From: Clostridiales bacterium
Lineage (GTDB): Bacteria > Bacillota > Clostridia > Oscillospirales > Acutalibacteraceae
NCBI GenBank assembly: GCA_012839345.1
Contig: DUNN01000036.1
Coordinates: 124,001 to 188,000, forward strand
Direction: 5' to 3'
Length of the DNA stretch: 64,000 nt
The number at the start of each line of letters is the position of its first letter. Position 1 is the stretch's first letter. A program made the translations under genes and the position numbers. Below are positions 7,437 through 42,300 of this stretch, piece by piece. Below the pieces are notes generated by a model. The model did not search any database, was not told the DNA's origin, and saw only the letters and a program-made list of their open reading frames with translations.

Positions 7437-7919
7437 ATGAAGTGGAAAGGCCCATCGGTTTACCCTAAAATCTTGTTTACGGCGGCAACGGCACTGTTTG
7501 TGCTGTTTATCTTCCACAATTCCATGTTTCCTGGGCCGCAGTCCGGTGCCCAAAGCCAGACGGTAATGCATTTTGTGAATCAGCTGCTGGCTTCCTGTAA
7601 CATTCCGTATGCGTTTACGGAGCATTTCATCCGCAAGGCCGGTCATTTTACGGAATATTTTATTTTTGGCGTACTGCTTGCGCTCACCTTACGGGCGTAC
7701 CGCTGTGAAGGGCTGGAATTTGTTTTTGCACAGGGCTTTTTTCTGCTATTGGTGCCGGCCTGCGATGAATTGATTCAGCTGTTTACTCCCGAGCGCGGCA
7801 GCAGCGTAGCGGATATTTTTCTGGATTTTTGCGGCGGCGTGGTAGGAACGGTGGTTTGCTGCCTGTTTTTGTTCCGCTCTGCGAAAAAACGGCGGTCAGT
7901 TCACCGCTTCGGGCGATAG
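7437..7919 (+). CDS. VanZ-family membrane protein
   Basis: Integral membrane protein of 160 residues with four predicted hydrophobic helices (about residues 9-25, 65-82, 97-112 and 128-150) and the VanZ hallmarks HFIRKAGHFTEYF and CDELIQLFTPERGSS. VanZ relatives are linked to low-level glycopeptide resistance or envelope processes, but most are uncharacterised. ATG 7437 is chosen because GTAAGGA lies 9 bases upstream. A GTG at 7431 would leave too little spacing. The last 24 bases overlap the 3' end of the convergent valS gene, so the tail is read on both strands. No enzymatic motif is visible. Confidence 0.85.
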   Translation: MKWKGPSVYPKILFTAATALFVLFIFHNSMFPGPQSGAQSQTVMHFVNQLLASCNIPYAFTEHFIRKAGHFTEYFIFGVLLALTLRAYRCEGLEFVFAQGFFLLLVPACDELIQLFTPERGSSVADIFLDFCGGVVGTVVCCLFLFRSAKKRRSVHRFGR

Positions 7920-10307
7920 CGCAATCGAAAACGATTCACCGGGAATCAGGTGCAGGTTTTTGCAGTTGCAGCAGCTTTGCAAATCCGAACGGGTTTGTTC
8001 CAGTAGCGGAAGTATTTCATCCGGTACGGTAACGGTAAGATCGCCGAGTTCCGCTTTCAGCGACAAATTGCGTTCGGATTTCTGTTTCCGAACCTCAAAC
8101 AAAATTTGCTTGATGATGGTTCCAAAGTCTTCCGGAAGTTCCGCCGGAAGGCTTTTTTCGTCCCAGCGGGAAAGGTGGATAGAGGGCGTTGCTTCACGGT
8201 TGCAGTAGTACGTTTGGTAAATGACCTCCGTCATATGCGGGACGAACGGGGCGTACAGCTTTAGAATGGACAGAAATCCGTGCGAAAGCGCCCAGGCGGT
8301 GGAGCGAAGTTCCGTTTCGTCCTTTGCGTTGTAGCTGCGGTTTTTGACCAGCTCCAGATACGTGTCGCAGTAATCCTTCCAGAACAGATTGTCGATTTCG
8401 TGCCTTGCTGCGCCGATTTCATAGCGGTTCAGCCATTGCGCGGCAGAGGAGGCGGTTTGGGCGCAGCGCTGCAAAATCCAGCGGTCCAACGGAAGAAGAG
8501 TTTCCGGTTTTTCGTCAGCGTACAGCGCCAGAGCGTCCAGTCGGCCCAGCGTGAATTTCGCCGCGTTCCACAGCTTGGTCAGGAAGCGGGCGGACTGCTT
8601 CAATTCTTCCTGTGAAAACAGTGTGTCGGTACCAAGATGCGCACCAGCCGCCCAGTAGCGCAGACTGTCCGCGGAATACTGCTTAATCAGCTCGTTTGGG
8701 GAAACGACGGCGTTGCCCTTGGACTTGCTGATTTTTTCCCCTTTTTTGGCCAGAACGAACCCACAAATCATGATGTCCTTCCAAGGAATCTGCCCGGTTT
8801 CGTAAATGCTTCGGACAATGGAATAAAACGCCCACGTGCGAATAATTTCATGCGCCTGTGTGCGCATGCTCATGGGCGGGAAAGCGTCGCGCAGGCCGTG
8901 TTCCTCCGCGTTTTGAGCATTGATGAAGGGGGTAAGAGAAGAGGTAGCCCAGGTGTCCATTACGGCGGTTTCCGGTACAAATTCCGTGCAGCCGCAGGTG
9001 CAGGGGTGCGGCGGCGGGCATTCCACAGGGTTGACAGGCAGCTGGGACTCCTCCGCGAAAATCGGTTTTCCGCACCGCTTGCAGTACCAGACCGGAAACG
9101 GAACGCCGAAATACCGCTGGCGGGAAATGCACCAGTCCCATTTCAGGTTTTGTACCCAGAGCAGGTAACGGGTTTTCATGGAAGCCGGATACCAGTTGAT
9201 TTCGTCCGCGGCGGCCAGAAAACGCTCCTTGTGCGATAAAATATCGAAAAACCATTGCCGGGACGGCAGAATTTCTACCTCTTTCCCGCAGCGTTCATGA
9301 ACGGAAACGGTATGCCGGATCTGCTCTTTTTTGAGCAGAAGTCCGTGCTCCTCTAGCAACTCCGCCATTCGTACTCTGGCCTGGGCGGCTTTCATACCGC
9401 CAACCAGCGGGACGGATTCCGGCAGTCGGCCGTTTGGCTCCATCATCCGCTTGTAAGGGAGATGGTGCTTTTCAAACCATTCCAAATCCGTGGTGTCGCC
9501 AAAGGTTGCACACATGACCGCGCCCGTTCCCTTTTCCGGGTCGGCTTTTTCGTCGCCAAGAACCGGTATATCGAATTCATAGAGCGGGACGCGTGCGGTT
9601 TTGCCAATCAGGTGGTTGTAGCGGGTGTCGTCCGGGTGGACAAACAGCGCGGCACAGCCGTACAGCAGTTCCGGTCGGGTGGTGGCGACGGGTATCATTT
9701 CCGTTCCAACGTAAAACGGAATCGTGTGAAAGGCGGAATCCTTTTCCGCGGTGTCCAGCTCCGCCTGCGCAATGGAGGTACGGCAGTTGGTGCACCACAG
9801 AACGGGGGACTCTTTCTGGTAAGCCTTTCCTTCCCGCGCCAGTCGGAGAAACGAGCGCTGCGACAGCTTCTGTACGGCGGGGCTGATGGTTTCATACCGC
9901 AGGCTCCAGTCTACGCTGAATCCCATGGACTTCCACAGTGCCTGGAACTCGTTGCGGTATTGCTCTGTGGTTTCCCGGCAAAGGCGGGTAAATTCGCTTC
10001 GCGGCATAGAAGCTGCTGTTACCCCATGTTCTTTTTCGGTCAGCCGTTCAGAAGGCAGGCCGTTGTCATCAAAACCAAAGGGATAAAAAACGTTTTTACC
10101 CTGCATTCGCTGGAAGCGGGCGATGATTTCTGCCTGTGTGTAGGAAAAAATGTGCCCAATGTGCAGGCTTCCGCTGACGGTCGGCGGAGGAGTATCGATG
10201 GAGTAAACCTCCCGCCCGTCGGGAAGAAAGCGGTAAGTTCCTTCCTTTTCCCATAGCTCCTGCATAGCTTTTTCCCATTTTTTTGCATCATAGTGCGGTT
10301 CAAGCAT
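7896..10307 (-). CDS. valS: valine--tRNA ligase, short form
   Basis: Class I aminoacyl-tRNA synthetase of 803 residues that charges tRNA-Val and edits Thr-tRNA. HIGH lies at residues 49-52 within GSLHIGHIF, KISKS at 525-529, and zinc-type cysteine pairs (WCTNC at 171-175, CKRC at 409-412) are present. The CP1 editing domain sits between them. The protein is about 80-150 residues shorter than the usual bacterial form and lacks the C-terminal coiled-coil arm. The FGFDDNGLPSERL segment resembles the archaeal/rickettsial type. The start is ATG 10307, with AGGAG 7 bases upstream. Control is by a T-box leader with a valine GUG specifier. It converges on vanZ. Confidence 0.97.
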   Translation of the reverse strand: MLEPHYDAKKWEKAMQELWEKEGTYRFLPDGREVYSIDTPPPTVSGSLHIGHIFSYTQAEIIARFQRMQGKNVFYPFGFDDNGLPSERLTEKEHGVTAASMPRSEFTRLCRETTEQYRNEFQALWKSMGFSVDWSLRYETISPAVQKLSQRSFLRLAREGKAYQKESPVLWCTNCRTSIAQAELDTAEKDSAFHTIPFYVGTEMIPVATTRPELLYGCAALFVHPDDTRYNHLIGKTARVPLYEFDIPVLGDEKADPEKGTGAVMCATFGDTTDLEWFEKHHLPYKRMMEPNGRLPESVPLVGGMKAAQARVRMAELLEEHGLLLKKEQIRHTVSVHERCGKEVEILPSRQWFFDILSHKERFLAAADEINWYPASMKTRYLLWVQNLKWDWCISRQRYFGVPFPVWYCKRCGKPIFAEESQLPVNPVECPPPHPCTCGCTEFVPETAVMDTWATSSLTPFINAQNAEEHGLRDAFPPMSMRTQAHEIIRTWAFYSIVRSIYETGQIPWKDIMICGFVLAKKGEKISKSKGNAVVSPNELIKQYSADSLRYWAAGAHLGTDTLFSQEELKQSARFLTKLWNAAKFTLGRLDALALYADEKPETLLPLDRWILQRCAQTASSAAQWLNRYEIGAARHEIDNLFWKDYCDTYLELVKNRSYNAKDETELRSTAWALSHGFLSILKLYAPFVPHMTEVIYQTYYCNREATPSIHLSRWDEKSLPAELPEDFGTIIKQILFEVRKQKSERNLSLKAELGDLTVTVPDEILPLLEQTRSDLQSCCNCKNLHLIPGESFSIALSPEAVN

Positions 10308-10384
10308 CGTTTTTGCTCCTTTCTTTAAAACAGCATTTAAACAGGAAACAGTAAGATCGAAATCCGATTGAGAAAGCGAAAGAA

Positions 10385-10703
10385 TATAAAAAAGCCTTCG
10401 TCCTAATTGCATTAGGACGAAGGCTGAATCACTCCGCGGTACCACCTAACTTTGTACGGAACCTGCGCTCCGCACACGCTTGTGCCGTACAGGATCGCAG
10501 AAAGTTTACCGCCCTGCTATTCCGATACGGTTTCCTTTTAACGGTGGAATTCCGGCAAATCCTACTGGCATAAACGCGTTCAGTTCGCAGCTCCATGGTC
10601 ACTTTCCTGCTTTTGCAGCGGGGATTTTCACCAGCCATCCCTTCTCTGTGCTGCTCCAGACAGGTACTCTTCCATTTCCAAGCTTTTCTGCTGTTCAATT
10701 ATT
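10385..10703 (-). promoter_or_regulatory. T-box leader (tRNA-Val sensing) of valS
   Basis: Read on the minus strand, the leader carries the conserved T-box AGGTGGTACCGCGG (10434-10447). The UGGU can pair with the ACCA end of uncharged tRNA-Val. Stem I contains the AGAGTA S-turn and GGTGAAAATC segment. The specifier bulge lies between helices AUGG/CCAU and CCUG/CAGG and presents GUG (10600-10602), a valine codon, followed by A. Uncharged tRNA-Val should favour the antiterminator and switch valS on. The assignment is very secure. The specifier call rests on my own helix alignment. Confidence 0.95.
10388..10425 (-). terminator. T-box regulated intrinsic terminator
   Basis: Perfect 14-bp stem AGCCTTCGTCCTAA / TTAGGACGAAGGCT with a 5-base loop and a U-run on the minus strand, directly after the T-box. 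This is the alternative to the antiterminator. Confidence 0.95.
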
Positions 10704-14135: not shown

Positions 14136-15833
14136 ATGAGTGGCGATTTCGTTTTAATTGATAATATACCGGTGCAAATTGATGGAGAAAAAAATCTGCT
14201 TAGCCTGATACGCAAAGCGGGAATTGACCTTCCTACTTTCTGCTATTATTCCGAGCTTTCCGTATACGGCGCATGCCGCATGTGCATGGTGGAAAACAAA
14301 TGGGGCGGCATGGAAGCGGCCTGCTGCACACCGCCAAAGCCGGGTATGGAAATTTACACCAATACGCCGAAGCTGAGAAGATACCGCAAGATGATTCTGG
14401 AGCTGCTGCTTTCCAATCATTGCCGCGACTGCACAACCTGCGGCAAAAACGGCGACTGCAAACTGCAGGAGCTGGCCGGTCGCTTTGGAATCAACCGTGT
14501 GCGTTTTGAAAATACGGCGGAAAAACCGAAGCTGGATTCTTCTTCTCTCTGCATTGAACGCGACCTCAACAAATGCATTCTTTGCGGCGACTGCGTGCGC
14601 ATGTGCGATGAGGTGCAGAACGTAGGCGCCATCGACTTTATGTACCGCGGTTCGAAAATGACGGTGGGTACCACCTTTAATGTGCCGATTTCCGAAACCG
14701 TATGCGTTGGCTGCGGTCAGTGCGCGGCGGTCTGCCCGACGGGCGCTATCGTGGTGAAGAACGATGTCAGCAAGATTTGGAAGGTGCTGAACGACCCGTC
14801 CATCAAGGTTATCGTTCAGATTGCCCCTGCGGTGCGTGTTGGAATCGGCGACAAGCTGGGCGCGAAGCCCGGGGAAAACCTGATGGGAAAAATTGTTGCG
14901 GCGCTCAAACGCATGGGCGTAGATGAAGTGTTCGATACCGCCACCGGCGCGGACTTGACCGTTATGGAAGAGTCCAACGAGCTGCTGGGCCGTTTAGAAT
15001 CCGACGAAAAGCTTCCGTTGTTTACTTCCTGCTGCCCGGCCTGGGTGCAGTATGTAGAAAAGAAGCATCCGGAACTGCTTGCGAATGTTTCCACTTGCCG
15101 TTCTCCGATGGAAATGTTCGGTTCCGTTCTGAAGGAGGAAAATAAAAAGTCCGACCGACGCGTGGTGGTTATTGCCGTCATGCCCTGCACTGCCAAAAAG
15201 TTTGAAGCGGCCAGGGATGAATTTAAAGTAGACGGCGAGCCGTATATCGATTATGTGATTACCACACAGGAACTGATTCAGATGATTCAGGAAGCCGGCA
15301 TTATCTTTTCCGAGCTGGAGCCGGAAGCTATCGATATGCCGTTTGGCACACAGAGCGGTGCCGGTGTGATTTTCGGCGTAACCGGAGGTGTGACCGAAGC
15401 GGTAATCCGCCGCTTGTCTGAAAACAAATCCGCTTCCGCGCTGCGCGCTATAGCGTTTAACGGCGTACGCGGCATGGAAGGGCTGAAGGAAACCACTATC
15501 CAGTATGAGGACCGCGAAGTGAAAATCGCGATTGTCAGCGGACTGCGGAATGCGGAGAACCTGATTCAGAAAATGAAAAAGGGAGAATCACACTATGATT
15601 TTGTAGAAGTTATGGCCTGCCCAGGCGGTTGCGTTTGCGGTGCCGGCCAGCCCATTACCAACCTGGAGGGCAAAAAGAAGCGCAGCGTGGGTCTTTATGC
15701 CTCCGATAAAATGTGCAGCATCAAGCGTTCGGAGGAAAATCCCGTCGTTACCGCGCTATATTCCGGTCTGCTGAAAGGCAAGGCACACAAACTTCTGCAT
15801 GTGAAATATCAGAAGGAAGAAACCGCAGAGTAA
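14136..15833 (+). CDS. hydA: [FeFe]-hydrogenase catalytic subunit, group A
   Basis: Catalytic subunit of 565 residues that reduces protons to hydrogen at the H-cluster. The N-terminal [2Fe-2S] domain (FCYYSEL, CRMC, CC), the His-Cys3 cluster motif HCRDCTTCGKNGDC and two [4Fe-4S] motifs (CILCGDCVRMC, CVGCGQCAAVC) form the electron relay. H-cluster signatures are L1 TSCCPAW at about residue 297, L2 MPCTAKK at about 349 and L3 VMACPGGC at about 491. The L3 continuation reads CVCGAGQP, with one cysteine more than the textbook form. HydE, HydF and HydG maturases are not in the window. Third gene of the operon. No terminator follows before the next promoter. Confidence 0.96.
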   Translation: MSGDFVLIDNIPVQIDGEKNLLSLIRKAGIDLPTFCYYSELSVYGACRMCMVENKWGGMEAACCTPPKPGMEIYTNTPKLRRYRKMILELLLSNHCRDCTTCGKNGDCKLQELAGRFGINRVRFENTAEKPKLDSSSLCIERDLNKCILCGDCVRMCDEVQNVGAIDFMYRGSKMTVGTTFNVPISETVCVGCGQCAAVCPTGAIVVKNDVSKIWKVLNDPSIKVIVQIAPAVRVGIGDKLGAKPGENLMGKIVAALKRMGVDEVFDTATGADLTVMEESNELLGRLESDEKLPLFTSCCPAWVQYVEKKHPELLANVSTCRSPMEMFGSVLKEENKKSDRRVVVIAVMPCTAKKFEAARDEFKVDGEPYIDYVITTQELIQMIQEAGIIFSELEPEAIDMPFGTQSGAGVIFGVTGGVTEAVIRRLSENKSASALRAIAFNGVRGMEGLKETTIQYEDREVKIAIVSGLRNAENLIQKMKKGESHYDFVEVMACPGGCVCGAGQPITNLEGKKKRSVGLYASDKMCSIKRSEENPVVTALYSGLLKGKAHKLLHVKYQKEETAE

Positions 15834-15844
15834 ACATCTTCCTC

Positions 15845-15873
15845 TTGACAAAAAAACATTTTCCGTGTACTCT
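15845..15873 (+). promoter_or_regulatory. promoter of the riboswitch-folT transcript
   Basis: TTGACA (15845-15850), 17-base spacer, TACTCT (15868-15873). The -10 is weak but is preceded by TG. Transcription would begin near 15880, just before the ZTP aptamer. It lies immediately behind the hydA stop codon. Confidence 0.6.
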
Positions 15874-15881
15874 GAAATCAT

Positions 15882-15950
15882 GGGTCATATGACTGACGGA
15901 AGTGGGGAACCACAGGGGAGTATGACGGAGAAAAGCCGACCGTCTGGGCG
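15882..15950 (+). promoter_or_regulatory. ZTP (pfl) riboswitch
   Basis: P1 GTCATA/TATGAC (15884-15889 with 15921-15926), P2 GTGG/CCAC with loop GGAA, and the conserved AGGGGAG are all present. The pseudoknot GACGG (15895-15899) / CCGTC (15940-15944) replaces the usual GGCG/CGCC by compensatory change. The conserved CTGGGC end closes it. The class senses ZTP/ZMP, a sign of 10-formyl-THF shortage, and usually turns genes on. Confidence 0.9.
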
Positions 15951-15976
15951 ATTCGTCCGGATCGTCGGCTTTTTTC
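15932..15976 (+). terminator. ZTP riboswitch terminator
   Basis: Stem AAGCCGAC / GTCGGCTT (15933-15940 with 15964-15971) enclosing the 3' part of the aptamer, followed by a T-run. Ligand binding should compete with this hairpin and allow read-through. Confidence 0.85.
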
Positions 15977-16233
15977 GCAGGGTTCCTTTTTTTATCACGG
16001 CTGGTAGGGGGGTGATTTTCCGGTTGACAGGTCGGGTTCGTCTTTTGTCGGAAAACTCGGATAAACGGCGCATAAAAGCAGTTGGAAAGCCGCTCATACG
16101 GTGACTTTGCGGCTTGCCCATCGGCTTTTCGGGACTGGTCTGCAAAAGGCCTACCTGAAAAGTTTGTTGCCGCGCTTGCAGCGTCAATTTCTCTTTGCGT
16201 TTTTACAAACAGGCCCTGAAAATTGAATTGAAA

Positions 16234-16336
16234 TGGCAGAGTAGATAACTGTGGGTTATGTGTCCGGGAAACGGGGAGTTGATCCCGGAACGGAAACCAT
16301 TCGGTTGCCGTACAGCTATCGCATCCCGCTGCTGCA
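16234..16336 (+). promoter_or_regulatory. THF riboswitch
   Basis: Matches the tetrahydrofolate aptamer: GGCAGAGTAGAT at the 5' side, helix GATAACTGT / ACAGCTATC (16242-16250 with 16312-16320), an internal CCGGGA..TCCCGG arm and the conserved 3' GCATCCCGCTGC. The segment downstream contains CTCCT (16348-16352), complementary to the folT ribosome binding site AGGAGG (16379-16384), and a competing GGAG (16341-16344). Translational repression by folates is inferred. Confidence 0.9.
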
Positions 16337-16392
16337 TACCGGAGTTTCTCCTCTATGTGGCATTATACTGCCATATTTAGGAGGTTTTTTAT

Positions 16393-17004
16393 TTGAACAA
16401 CAAGTTACAGAATAAAGGAAATTCCATTTTCGGTCCCGCCTACTGGAGCACGGCCGCGGCGGAGTTCCGAAAGCCGCGGACACTTGTCTTTGCGGCGCTG
16501 ACCATTGCATTGGGGATTGTGATGAATCTGTTCAACATCCCCGTTTCGGAAAATCTGCACGTTTCCGTTGCGTTTCTGCCGGTTACGCTCGGTTCTATGG
16601 TATTTGGCCCGGTGGTGGGCCTTTCCGCAGGTGTGGTTTACGACCTAGTGGGATTTATGGTAATGCCTTCCGGGATGTTCTTTCCGGGATATACCCTCTC
16701 CAGCATGCTGGAATTTTTTATTTACGGAGTTTTCCTGTACCGCAGGAAGTTGTCGGTCGTTCGCATTCTAGCCGCAAAATTCACCGTGAATTATCTGATT
16801 CATGTGGGATTCGGTTCTCTCTGGAGTGCCGTTTTATACGGAAAGGCCTATTATTATTACTTCTGGAAAGGGCTGATTAAGAATACCATATTGCTTCCGG
16901 TGGAAGTGCTGCTTTTGGTGGCACTGTTCCAGGCATTTTTCCCGTTTTTGGTGCGCGAAGGACTCATTCCAAAGCAGGAACGAAAAATGATTCCGTTTCT
17001 TTAG
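16393..17004 (+). CDS. folT: folate ECF transporter substrate-binding (S) component
   Basis: Membrane S-component of 203 residues that binds folate and works with the shared EcfA/EcfA'/EcfT energy module encoded elsewhere. Five or six hydrophobic helices are visible, with the FolT-like loops FNIPVSENLHVSVAFLPVTL and FGPVVGLSAG, and a Gly/aromatic-rich FFPGYTLSSMLEFFIYG. Start is TTG 16393 with AGGAGG 8 bases upstream. The assignment is strongly supported by context: a THF riboswitch directly ahead and a ZTP riboswitch further up. Single gene, closed by a terminator. Confidence 0.9.
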   Translation: MNNKLQNKGNSIFGPAYWSTAAAEFRKPRTLVFAALTIALGIVMNLFNIPVSENLHVSVAFLPVTLGSMVFGPVVGLSAGVVYDLVGFMVMPSGMFFPGYTLSSMLEFFIYGVFLYRRKLSVVRILAAKFTVNYLIHVGFGSLWSAVLYGKAYYYYFWKGLIKNTILLPVEVLLLVALFQAFFPFLVREGLIPKQERKMIPFL

Positions 17005-17067: not shown

Positions 17068-17100
17068 AACGCAGGCGGGTTGTATCGCCTGCGTTTTTTT
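17068..17100 (+). terminator. intrinsic terminator after folT
   Basis: Perfect 10-bp stem AACGCAGGCG / CGCCTGCGTT with an 8-base loop and seven Ts. Confidence 0.95.
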
Positions 17101-40808: not shown

Positions 40809-42110
40809 TCAGACGGATTCTTTCTTTTCAAGGGCAAACGGACCGCCGCAGATATAAAACCGCTTTTTCCCGTGCTGTTTTGCGTAGTACAGCGAAGTAT
40901 CCGCTTTTACATAAAGCTCTGAATAGGTTTTTCCATCCTCTGGGTAAAGGGATACTCCGACACTGGCCGAAAGGGGGAAATCCTGTTCCGGCCCGAGCCG
41001 GATTTCATCTAAAGATTCCAACAGCCGGTTCAGCTTTAAAAGAAGTGCGTCCCTAGATGAATACTCTTTAAATAAAACAAAAAATTCGTCTCCGCCGATT
41101 CGCCCGATAATATCGGTGCCGTGAAATACGCATTGAAGGGTGTTCGAAACACGTTCCAGTGCATGGTCCCCCTCGATGTGGCCTAACGTGTCGTTGATGC
41201 TCTTGAAGTTGTCCACATCGATCATAATCGCAGCGCTTATGCTCTGGCTGCCTTCGCCTGCCAGGTAACTTTCGCATAATGACTGGGTAAATTTTTTATT
41301 GTAAAGCCCGGTCAGCCCGTCTTTTTGCGAAAGCTGAATCATTTCCAGTTCATTGCGTTTGCGGGAATCAATATCCTTCACATACCCAATGACCTTCATG
41401 CTGTCGCCCGTACTGTCCGAAAGATGAATCACCGTAGCCATTCGCCACTGTACCGTTCCGTCCGGTGTTTTTTCTCGGTATTCCAAATTTACTTCCCGAA
41501 TCGGCCCTTCTTTGAAAATCTGCATCAAATTGGCACGCTGAAAGGTGTTCCGGTACTGCTCTACGTCTTCTTCAAAGACCGCACGTTCGGCAATAAAGCG
41601 GATGATATCATCATACAGTTCCGTCTGCAGGAAAGAAAAATGGCGGCTGTACTGCTCCTGCCCGTAAAGAAACCGGTTGTGAGCCAAATCGGCTTCAAAG
41701 ACCCGCTCGCAGGTCAGCTCCAGCGCAGAACGGTAGATTTTCTCATTTTCATACATTTGGGTTTGCAAACGACGGGTTTTGGCGACTTCTTCGGTTTGCT
41801 GCTCCATAAAATCCATAAACTGATTGAATAACTGGGAAACCTGATAAAACAAGCCATTTCTGTTATCACAGGAAAAACGCGCCTGATAATCCCCTTGAAT
41901 TGCCCGCCGAAGCGACCGAGTTAAGTCCCGGATCGGCCCTTCCACAAAGCGGTACCACACAAGGCAGAGCGACCCCACAAGGGCGCCGAGCACAATGATG
42001 TATTCCCGTAGGCCAAACGACCGAATCGGCGTGTTTTGTGTTTCAAATAATACCACAGCAAGAAACACGAAAGCAGGAGAAATTCCAATCAAGTAACTCT
42101 TGTACTTCAC
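40809..42110 (-). CDS. membrane-anchored diguanylate cyclase (HAMP-PAS-GGDEF)
   Basis: Makes the second messenger c-di-GMP. 433 residues from GTG 42110 (a GGGG site 9 bases upstream; TTG 42125 is an alternative). Two N-terminal membrane helices (about residues 6-23 and 38-54), a HAMP-like linker (GPIRDLTRSLRRAIQGDY), a coiled coil, a PAS-like domain (about 110-255) and a GGDEF domain with GRIGGDEFFVLF at about residues 343-354. The active-site motif is intact. The inhibitory RxxD site five residues before it reads HGTD, so product feedback is probably weakened. There is no EAL domain. The leader carries a c-di-GMP-I riboswitch. Confidence 0.92.
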   Translation of the reverse strand: MKYKSYLIGISPAFVFLAVVLFETQNTPIRSFGLREYIIVLGALVGSLCLVWYRFVEGPIRDLTRSLRRAIQGDYQARFSCDNRNGLFYQVSQLFNQFMDFMEQQTEEVAKTRRLQTQMYENEKIYRSALELTCERVFEADLAHNRFLYGQEQYSRHFSFLQTELYDDIIRFIAERAVFEEDVEQYRNTFQRANLMQIFKEGPIREVNLEYREKTPDGTVQWRMATVIHLSDSTGDSMKVIGYVKDIDSRKRNELEMIQLSQKDGLTGLYNKKFTQSLCESYLAGEGSQSISAAIMIDVDNFKSINDTLGHIEGDHALERVSNTLQCVFHGTDIIGRIGGDEFFVLFKEYSSRDALLLKLNRLLESLDEIRLGPEQDFPLSASVGVSLYPEDGKTYSELYVKADTSLYYAKQHGKKRFYICGGPFALEKKESV

Positions 42111-42189
42111 AAACACCAACCCCAAAATCTATTACGGATAAGCAGTCTGCATTTACTTAACCGCAATGAGTGCAGCCGGCTGGCATACT

Positions 42190-42300
42190 TTTAAAGCGCT
42201 TCTACCATACGGATTTCTTTTCCGACGGCAGAAACGCAATGAAAAGGTTAGCCCCATGGCTTTGCGTCCCGGACTTTTATCCGGTTTGCCTTTTTACTTA
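42190..42300 (-). promoter_or_regulatory. c-di-GMP-I (GEMM) riboswitch
   Basis: Minus strand shows the class core GGCAAACC...GGGACGCAAAGCC (42255-42291) with the P2 arm GGAT/GTCC, followed by GGGGCTAACC. A long arm GCGTTTCTGCC / GGTAGAAGCGC (42193-42237) then ends in TTTAAAA and may serve as P3 or as a weak terminator. It lies in the leader of the diguanylate cyclase gene, so the enzyme's product should control its own synthesis. Whether binding turns expression on or off is not evident. Confidence 0.9.

Follow-up and report, generated by a model that had tools for sequence, protein, structure and literature searches.

How is folate import controlled at a gene whose leader carries two riboswitches of different classes, and would the two act together on one RNA? 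The question arises at folT in the window, by which we mean the whole 64-kb stretch of DNA analyzed here. A first-pass annotation described complete ZTP and THF aptamers in tandem ahead of this gene, about 280 bases apart. Rfam 15 cmscan of the whole window on both strands gave five matches at gathering score. Each of the two aptamers is matched over the full length of its covariance model, and the spacing is as described (278 nt between the ZTP aptamer end at 15956 and the THF aptamer start at 16235). The tandem leader lies downstream of an [FeFe] hydrogenase gene, which ends at 15833. Its features are the following.

15845..15873, + strand: promoter-like site TTGACA-17 nt-TACTCT, with the best matrix score in 15834-16300 (9.84)
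15879..15956, + strand: ZMP/ZTP riboswitch aptamer (RF01750); cmscan 57.7 bits, gathering score 39, full model
15932..15975, + strand: intrinsic terminator, its 5' strand (GCCGAC...) inside the ZTP aptamer 3' domain; RNA fold and terminator scan
15976..16234, + strand: linker of 259 nt from the terminator to the THF aptamer; repeat search and promoter scoring
16235..16333, + strand: THF-I riboswitch aptamer (RF01831); cmscan 84.9 bits, gathering score 36, full model
16330..16362, + strand: predicted ON hairpin of the aptamer P1 3' strand and the anti-Shine-Dalgarno strand; fold -15.1 kcal/mol
16347..16384, + strand: predicted OFF hairpin, in which anti-Shine-Dalgarno bases 16347-16352 pair with AGGAGG at 16379-16384; fold -19.2 kcal/mol
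16393..17004, + strand: folT, folate-family ECF transporter S component, TTG start, 203 aa; TIGR04518
17068..17095, + strand: terminator-like hairpin 3' of folT; terminator scan

The window holds other riboregulators. On the minus strand, a T-box leader (10410-10689, 107.4 bits) stands immediately 5' of the gene for valine--tRNA ligase (7896-10445). A c-di-GMP-I riboswitch (42168-42300, minus strand, 62.5 bits) precedes the gene of a GGDEF diguanylate cyclase (40809-42125), so that a c-di-GMP sensor comes before a likely c-di-GMP maker.

The two riboswitches and their predicted platforms

The ZTP aptamer aligns to positions 1-86 of the 86-position ZMP-ZTP model (E 9.5e-7 for 64 kb, both strands), and its 57.7 bits place it in RF01750. 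The platform is predicted to have the on-switch form, in which a terminator overlaps the 3' part of the aptamer. The segment GCCGACCGUCUGGGC closes the ZTP aptamer and also opens a terminator hairpin of 41 nt, as its 5' strand (15932-15972, RNA fold -27.0 kcal/mol), with a six-U run at 15970-15975; the ZTP unit has a predicted terminator of its own, as annotated at first pass. According to the available part of PMC2864571, an overlapping terminator has been reported for many, not all, ZTP-class (pfl) RNAs. A single ZTP copy turned up among the 150 of 239 first-look candidates scored in the 85.5% complete assembly, so that a second, weak one may exist.

The THF aptamer aligns to positions 1-99 of 99 (E 3.1e-18 for 64 kb, both strands) and belongs to RF01831 at 84.9 bits. 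It too was found once in the 85.5% complete assembly. Minimum-energy folds of cut-out stretches give two competing hairpins, and with them the predicted RF01831 platform that masks the ribosome-binding site when P1 is kept. The OFF hairpin pairs all six Shine-Dalgarno bases, which accounts for the anti-ribosome-binding-site segment of the first-pass annotation; its -19.2 kcal/mol was reached by 1 of 300 two-base-block shuffles. The -15.1 kcal/mol of the ON hairpin was reached by none of 300. Given this competition, a ligand that holds P1 should close the ribosome-binding site. When the whole 166-nt THF region is folded, the minimum-energy structure keeps the Shine-Dalgarno hairpin and the aptamer is not intact, which is no surprise for a fold computed in the absence of ligand and tertiary contacts.

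The gene behind these elements is folT, as first annotated: its product scores 102.7 bits against TIGR04518 (cut-off 60). Its sequence relatives in the PDB (4z7f, 5d0y, 9kym, 4huq and 5d3m) include solved folate S components. The Shine-Dalgarno sequence AGGAGG (16379-16384) is separated from the start codon by 8 nt. Because a terminator-like hairpin follows at 17068-17095, the transcript may carry no gene besides folT.

The same tandem order precedes a folT-family gene in relatives, a comparison that the first-pass annotation had proposed. Five further loci were found: Ruminococcaceae bacterium HV4-5-B5C (L078), Clostridium oryzae (L079), G095 (locus L074), G689 (locus L115) and G945 (locus L117). 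In all six tandem loci, folding predicts a terminator hairpin that includes the 3' segment of the ZTP aptamer, and a Shine-Dalgarno hairpin covering six of six bases. The competing hairpin, which contains the P1 3' strand, is predicted in five of the six, the exception being G095 in the stretch folded.

A probable single transcript and a proposed two-input gate

The promoter that had been placed ahead of the ZTP aptamer holds up in part. A TTGACA-17-TACTCT site does lie at 15845-15873, but its -10 element is weak, it is absent from the consensus-scan list and its score is not rare. The value of 9.84 is close to the 90th percentile (9.71) of best scores from 300 random 265-bp stretches of the window, and as the best of a 467-bp stretch it is flattered by that comparison. 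Support for the site as a promoter is mainly positional: TTGACA-17-TATCAT stands at the same place in L078 and L079, and TTGACA-17-TATTAT in G095 and G689.

The linker is the unusual part of the leader. From CTGGGC in the ZTP core to GCAGAGTAG in the THF aptamer there are 286 nt in the window, against 54-100 nt in the other five tandems, so on sequence alone an internal start in the linker is possible. A promoter above background was not found there: the best linker score is 6.98, near the median best score of 6.57 from 300 random 265-bp stretches, and a second promoter is not supported. The linker was also considered as a mobile repeat, which was rejected for this assembly, where it has no second copy (one other match, 26 bases, E 0.57). 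The shared promoter-like position in relatives, the lack of a linker site above background and the mere 54 nt between the cores of G095 make it likely that ZTP and THF are on one RNA.

The best-supported reading, to which we assign a probability of about 85%, is that the folT leader works as a ZTP AND NOT THF gate on a shared RNA. It is built on aptamers identified by covariance model, platforms from fold prediction, the gene and the order: a ZTP riboswitch upstream of a THF-I riboswitch, on the same strand, before one folate-related gene. A single transcript would begin just before 15879. At low ZMP/ZTP, the terminator at 15932-15975 would form and transcription would end; at high ZMP/ZTP, when 10-formyl-THF is short and purine synthesis, which depends on folate, stalls, the aptamer would keep the terminator 5' strand and RNA polymerase would continue. 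The downstream THF-I aptamer would govern translation. With THF bound, P1 would be kept, the anti-Shine-Dalgarno strand would be free and AGGAGG would be masked; without THF, the anti-Shine-Dalgarno strand would be taken up by the P1 3' strand, leaving the ribosome-binding site open. Through ZTP antitermination and THF masking of the ribosome-binding site, FolT, the folate importer, would be produced when ZTP is high and THF is low, i.e. A AND NOT B. The putative switch directions follow from the known classes and the anatomy of the platforms, and we infer the ligand response and the single transcript.

The two riboswitches could instead be on separate RNAs, with the ZTP unit a leftover and folT started in the linker under THF only. 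This would fit the 286 nt between the cores, far from the 54-100 nt of the other five tandem loci, and also two THF-only relatives, L080 and L081, in which inspection by eye shows a promoter-like TTGA...TATAAT-type sequence immediately upstream of the THF aptamer. We consider it improbable: the linker has nothing above background (6.98 against the random median of 6.57), the cores of G095 are just 54 nt apart, and the tandem order is common to five loci of the window's FolT group. Still less probable is that one of the two riboswitches does not work here, e.g. a ZTP unit that always reads through or always stops; the enlarged linker and the invisibility of ligand response to sequence lend this a little weight, against a ZTP score within the range of six congeners (57.7 bits; 53.4-69.4) and above the gathering score of 39, and a strong overlapping terminator (-27.0 kcal/mol).

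Distribution and history of the tandem

Among 200 genomes of the family, THF was found in 84 and ZTP in 90, and the two are adjacent on the same strand in two, the window genome and G095 (places compared by eye); stricter filters were used in this search, at the cost of weak matches. In the genus, 10 of 11 genomes have THF and 7 of 11 have ZTP, and the two are adjacent solely in the window genome. The congener loci were named by eye, with one folT, one rimM and one pyruvate formate-lyase checked by family search. A rimM frame follows THF-folT at seven of nine congener THF loci (open reading frame lists, by eye); at the remaining two, the lists give antisense frames after THF-folT. ZTP stands before a pyruvate formate-lyase frame in all six congeners where it was found (by eye). 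The window copy of the tandem stands out only by the length of its linker and by its occurrence in a genus whose other members have a different THF-folT locus and, where ZTP was found, have it before a pyruvate formate-lyase gene.

Four loci were found in named genomes with FolT: the tandems L078 and L079, and two with THF only, Clostridium hydrogenum (L080) and C. guangxiense (L081). A gap pattern applied to 391 genomes of the class gave one more tandem, G689, and a loosened pattern applied to 12 genomes gave G945, a near relative of G689; another match of the loosened search (L118, the third) is without a ZTP core before it. These tandem counts are lower bounds, since the patterns are blind to linkers as long as that of the window. 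The best 29 other FolT relatives from the order have THF in 23 cases and ZTP in none at gathering score, within flanks of at most 1500 nt each, some of which end at contig ends. For two order-level searches of 394 genomes each, tandem occurrence refers to the 150 matches listed. A loose gap pattern matched at least 120 stretches of viral contigs, 80 of them listed, and the loci examined showed no ZTP-like core followed by a THF start. On plasmids, eight records have a distant FolT, none covering 80% of FolT, and there are two weak DNA matches to part of the L078 leader.

In a tree of 36 FolT proteins, with sequences extracted by tblastn, one branch with support 88/87, present in 86% of 200 bootstrap trees, sets five tandem loci apart: the window and four further tandem loci that group with it. 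The THF-only loci L080 and L081 are the nearest rows, and the seven come together at 100/99. G095 was omitted from the tree because its protein is just 26% identical to the window FolT over 90 residues, although it does belong to the FolT family, at 65.9 bits against a cut-off of 60. Given this low identity, the G095 tandem is probably of separate origin. The pattern suggests two additions of ZTP: one within this FolT group, where a THF-folT leader already existed, and a separate one in G095.

The gene start of G095 (minus strand) has a peculiarity of its own. By eye, the start codon served by the regulated ribosome-binding site leads into a frame of only four codons, and the FolT-family frame starts farther downstream; a leader peptide may be encoded here, or the gene start may be disturbed.

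The linkers of L078 (3727-3811), L079 (3717-3808) and G689 (about 1480-1580 of L115) contain a strand of about 20-25 nt that could pair with the 5' arm of the ZTP aptamer by complementarity. The computed duplexes have -21.7 to -22.9 kcal/mol, and P from two-base-block shuffles is 0.005 for L078, 0 of 1000 for L079 and 0.001 for G689. This strand could undo the ZTP aptamer after read-through; alternatively, it could have arisen by chance and been passed on among close relatives, the three FolT proteins being 84-88% identical. It was not seen in G095 (P 0.24) or G945 (P 0.78) by block shuffles. As a mechanism for the window it was rejected (P 0.85, 1000 two-base-block shuffles). Among single-ZTP loci, 1 of 19 usable (L058) had P < 0.05, about what chance would give; the other 15 of 34 were dropped because the pattern missed the core or too little sequence was available.

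Comparison with the congeners leads us to infer that the window genome may have received its cassette by transfer. A broader reading, tentative and on balance unlikely, is that promoter, ZTP, THF and folT form a portable cassette, in which a folate importer moves among Clostridia together with its two-input switch, that this cassette took the place of the resident THF-folT locus in the window genome, and that the linker strand is a possible third control element in three of the six tandems (the closely related three above, the window not included).

Comparison with known systems

The ZTP/THF-I pairing is already described in other bacteria, and the window is a further example. The available part of PMC9481103 lists the order ZTP, THF-I under the predicted logic 'A AND NOT B', with 10 counted examples (Table 2, ON/OFF gates), with genes relevant to 10-formyl-THF synthesis as targets, and states that the arrangement was noticed when both classes were validated (citing Kim 2015, Ames 2010). 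The first-pass annotation had suggested that the pair was undescribed, which was mistaken; the two-input gate that it proposed fits both the anatomy and this published prediction. The words folT and folate transport are absent from the main text of PMC9481103 as available.

The window contributes a folT case, well resolved, to a natural logic gate that is rare and was described before. Its leader would be of use in choosing a tandem for tests of transcription-then-translation gating, and it raises no new question of principle; minor points are the length of the linker and the anti-ZTP strand, which is limited to one lineage.

Taken singly, the ZTP unit shares the full covariance match and the overlapping terminator with the ZMP-ZTP riboswitch (RF01750, pfl motif), and differs from the ZTP units of six congeners in not standing before a pyruvate formate-lyase gene. 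The THF unit has the full covariance match, the anti-Shine-Dalgarno platform and the downstream folT of THF-I riboswitches (RF01831) before folT; it differs from the 23 THF-bearing loci among the 29 order relatives in having a ZTP riboswitch ahead. With the ZTP/THF-I tandem in the available part of PMC9481103, the window shares the two classes, their order, the predicted logic and a folate-related target, and it differs in its long linker. SAM-II/SAM-V and other bi-mechanism tandems described there likewise combine transcriptional control first with translational control second. Those tandems sense one ligand twice (PMC9481103), whereas the window tandem would sense two.
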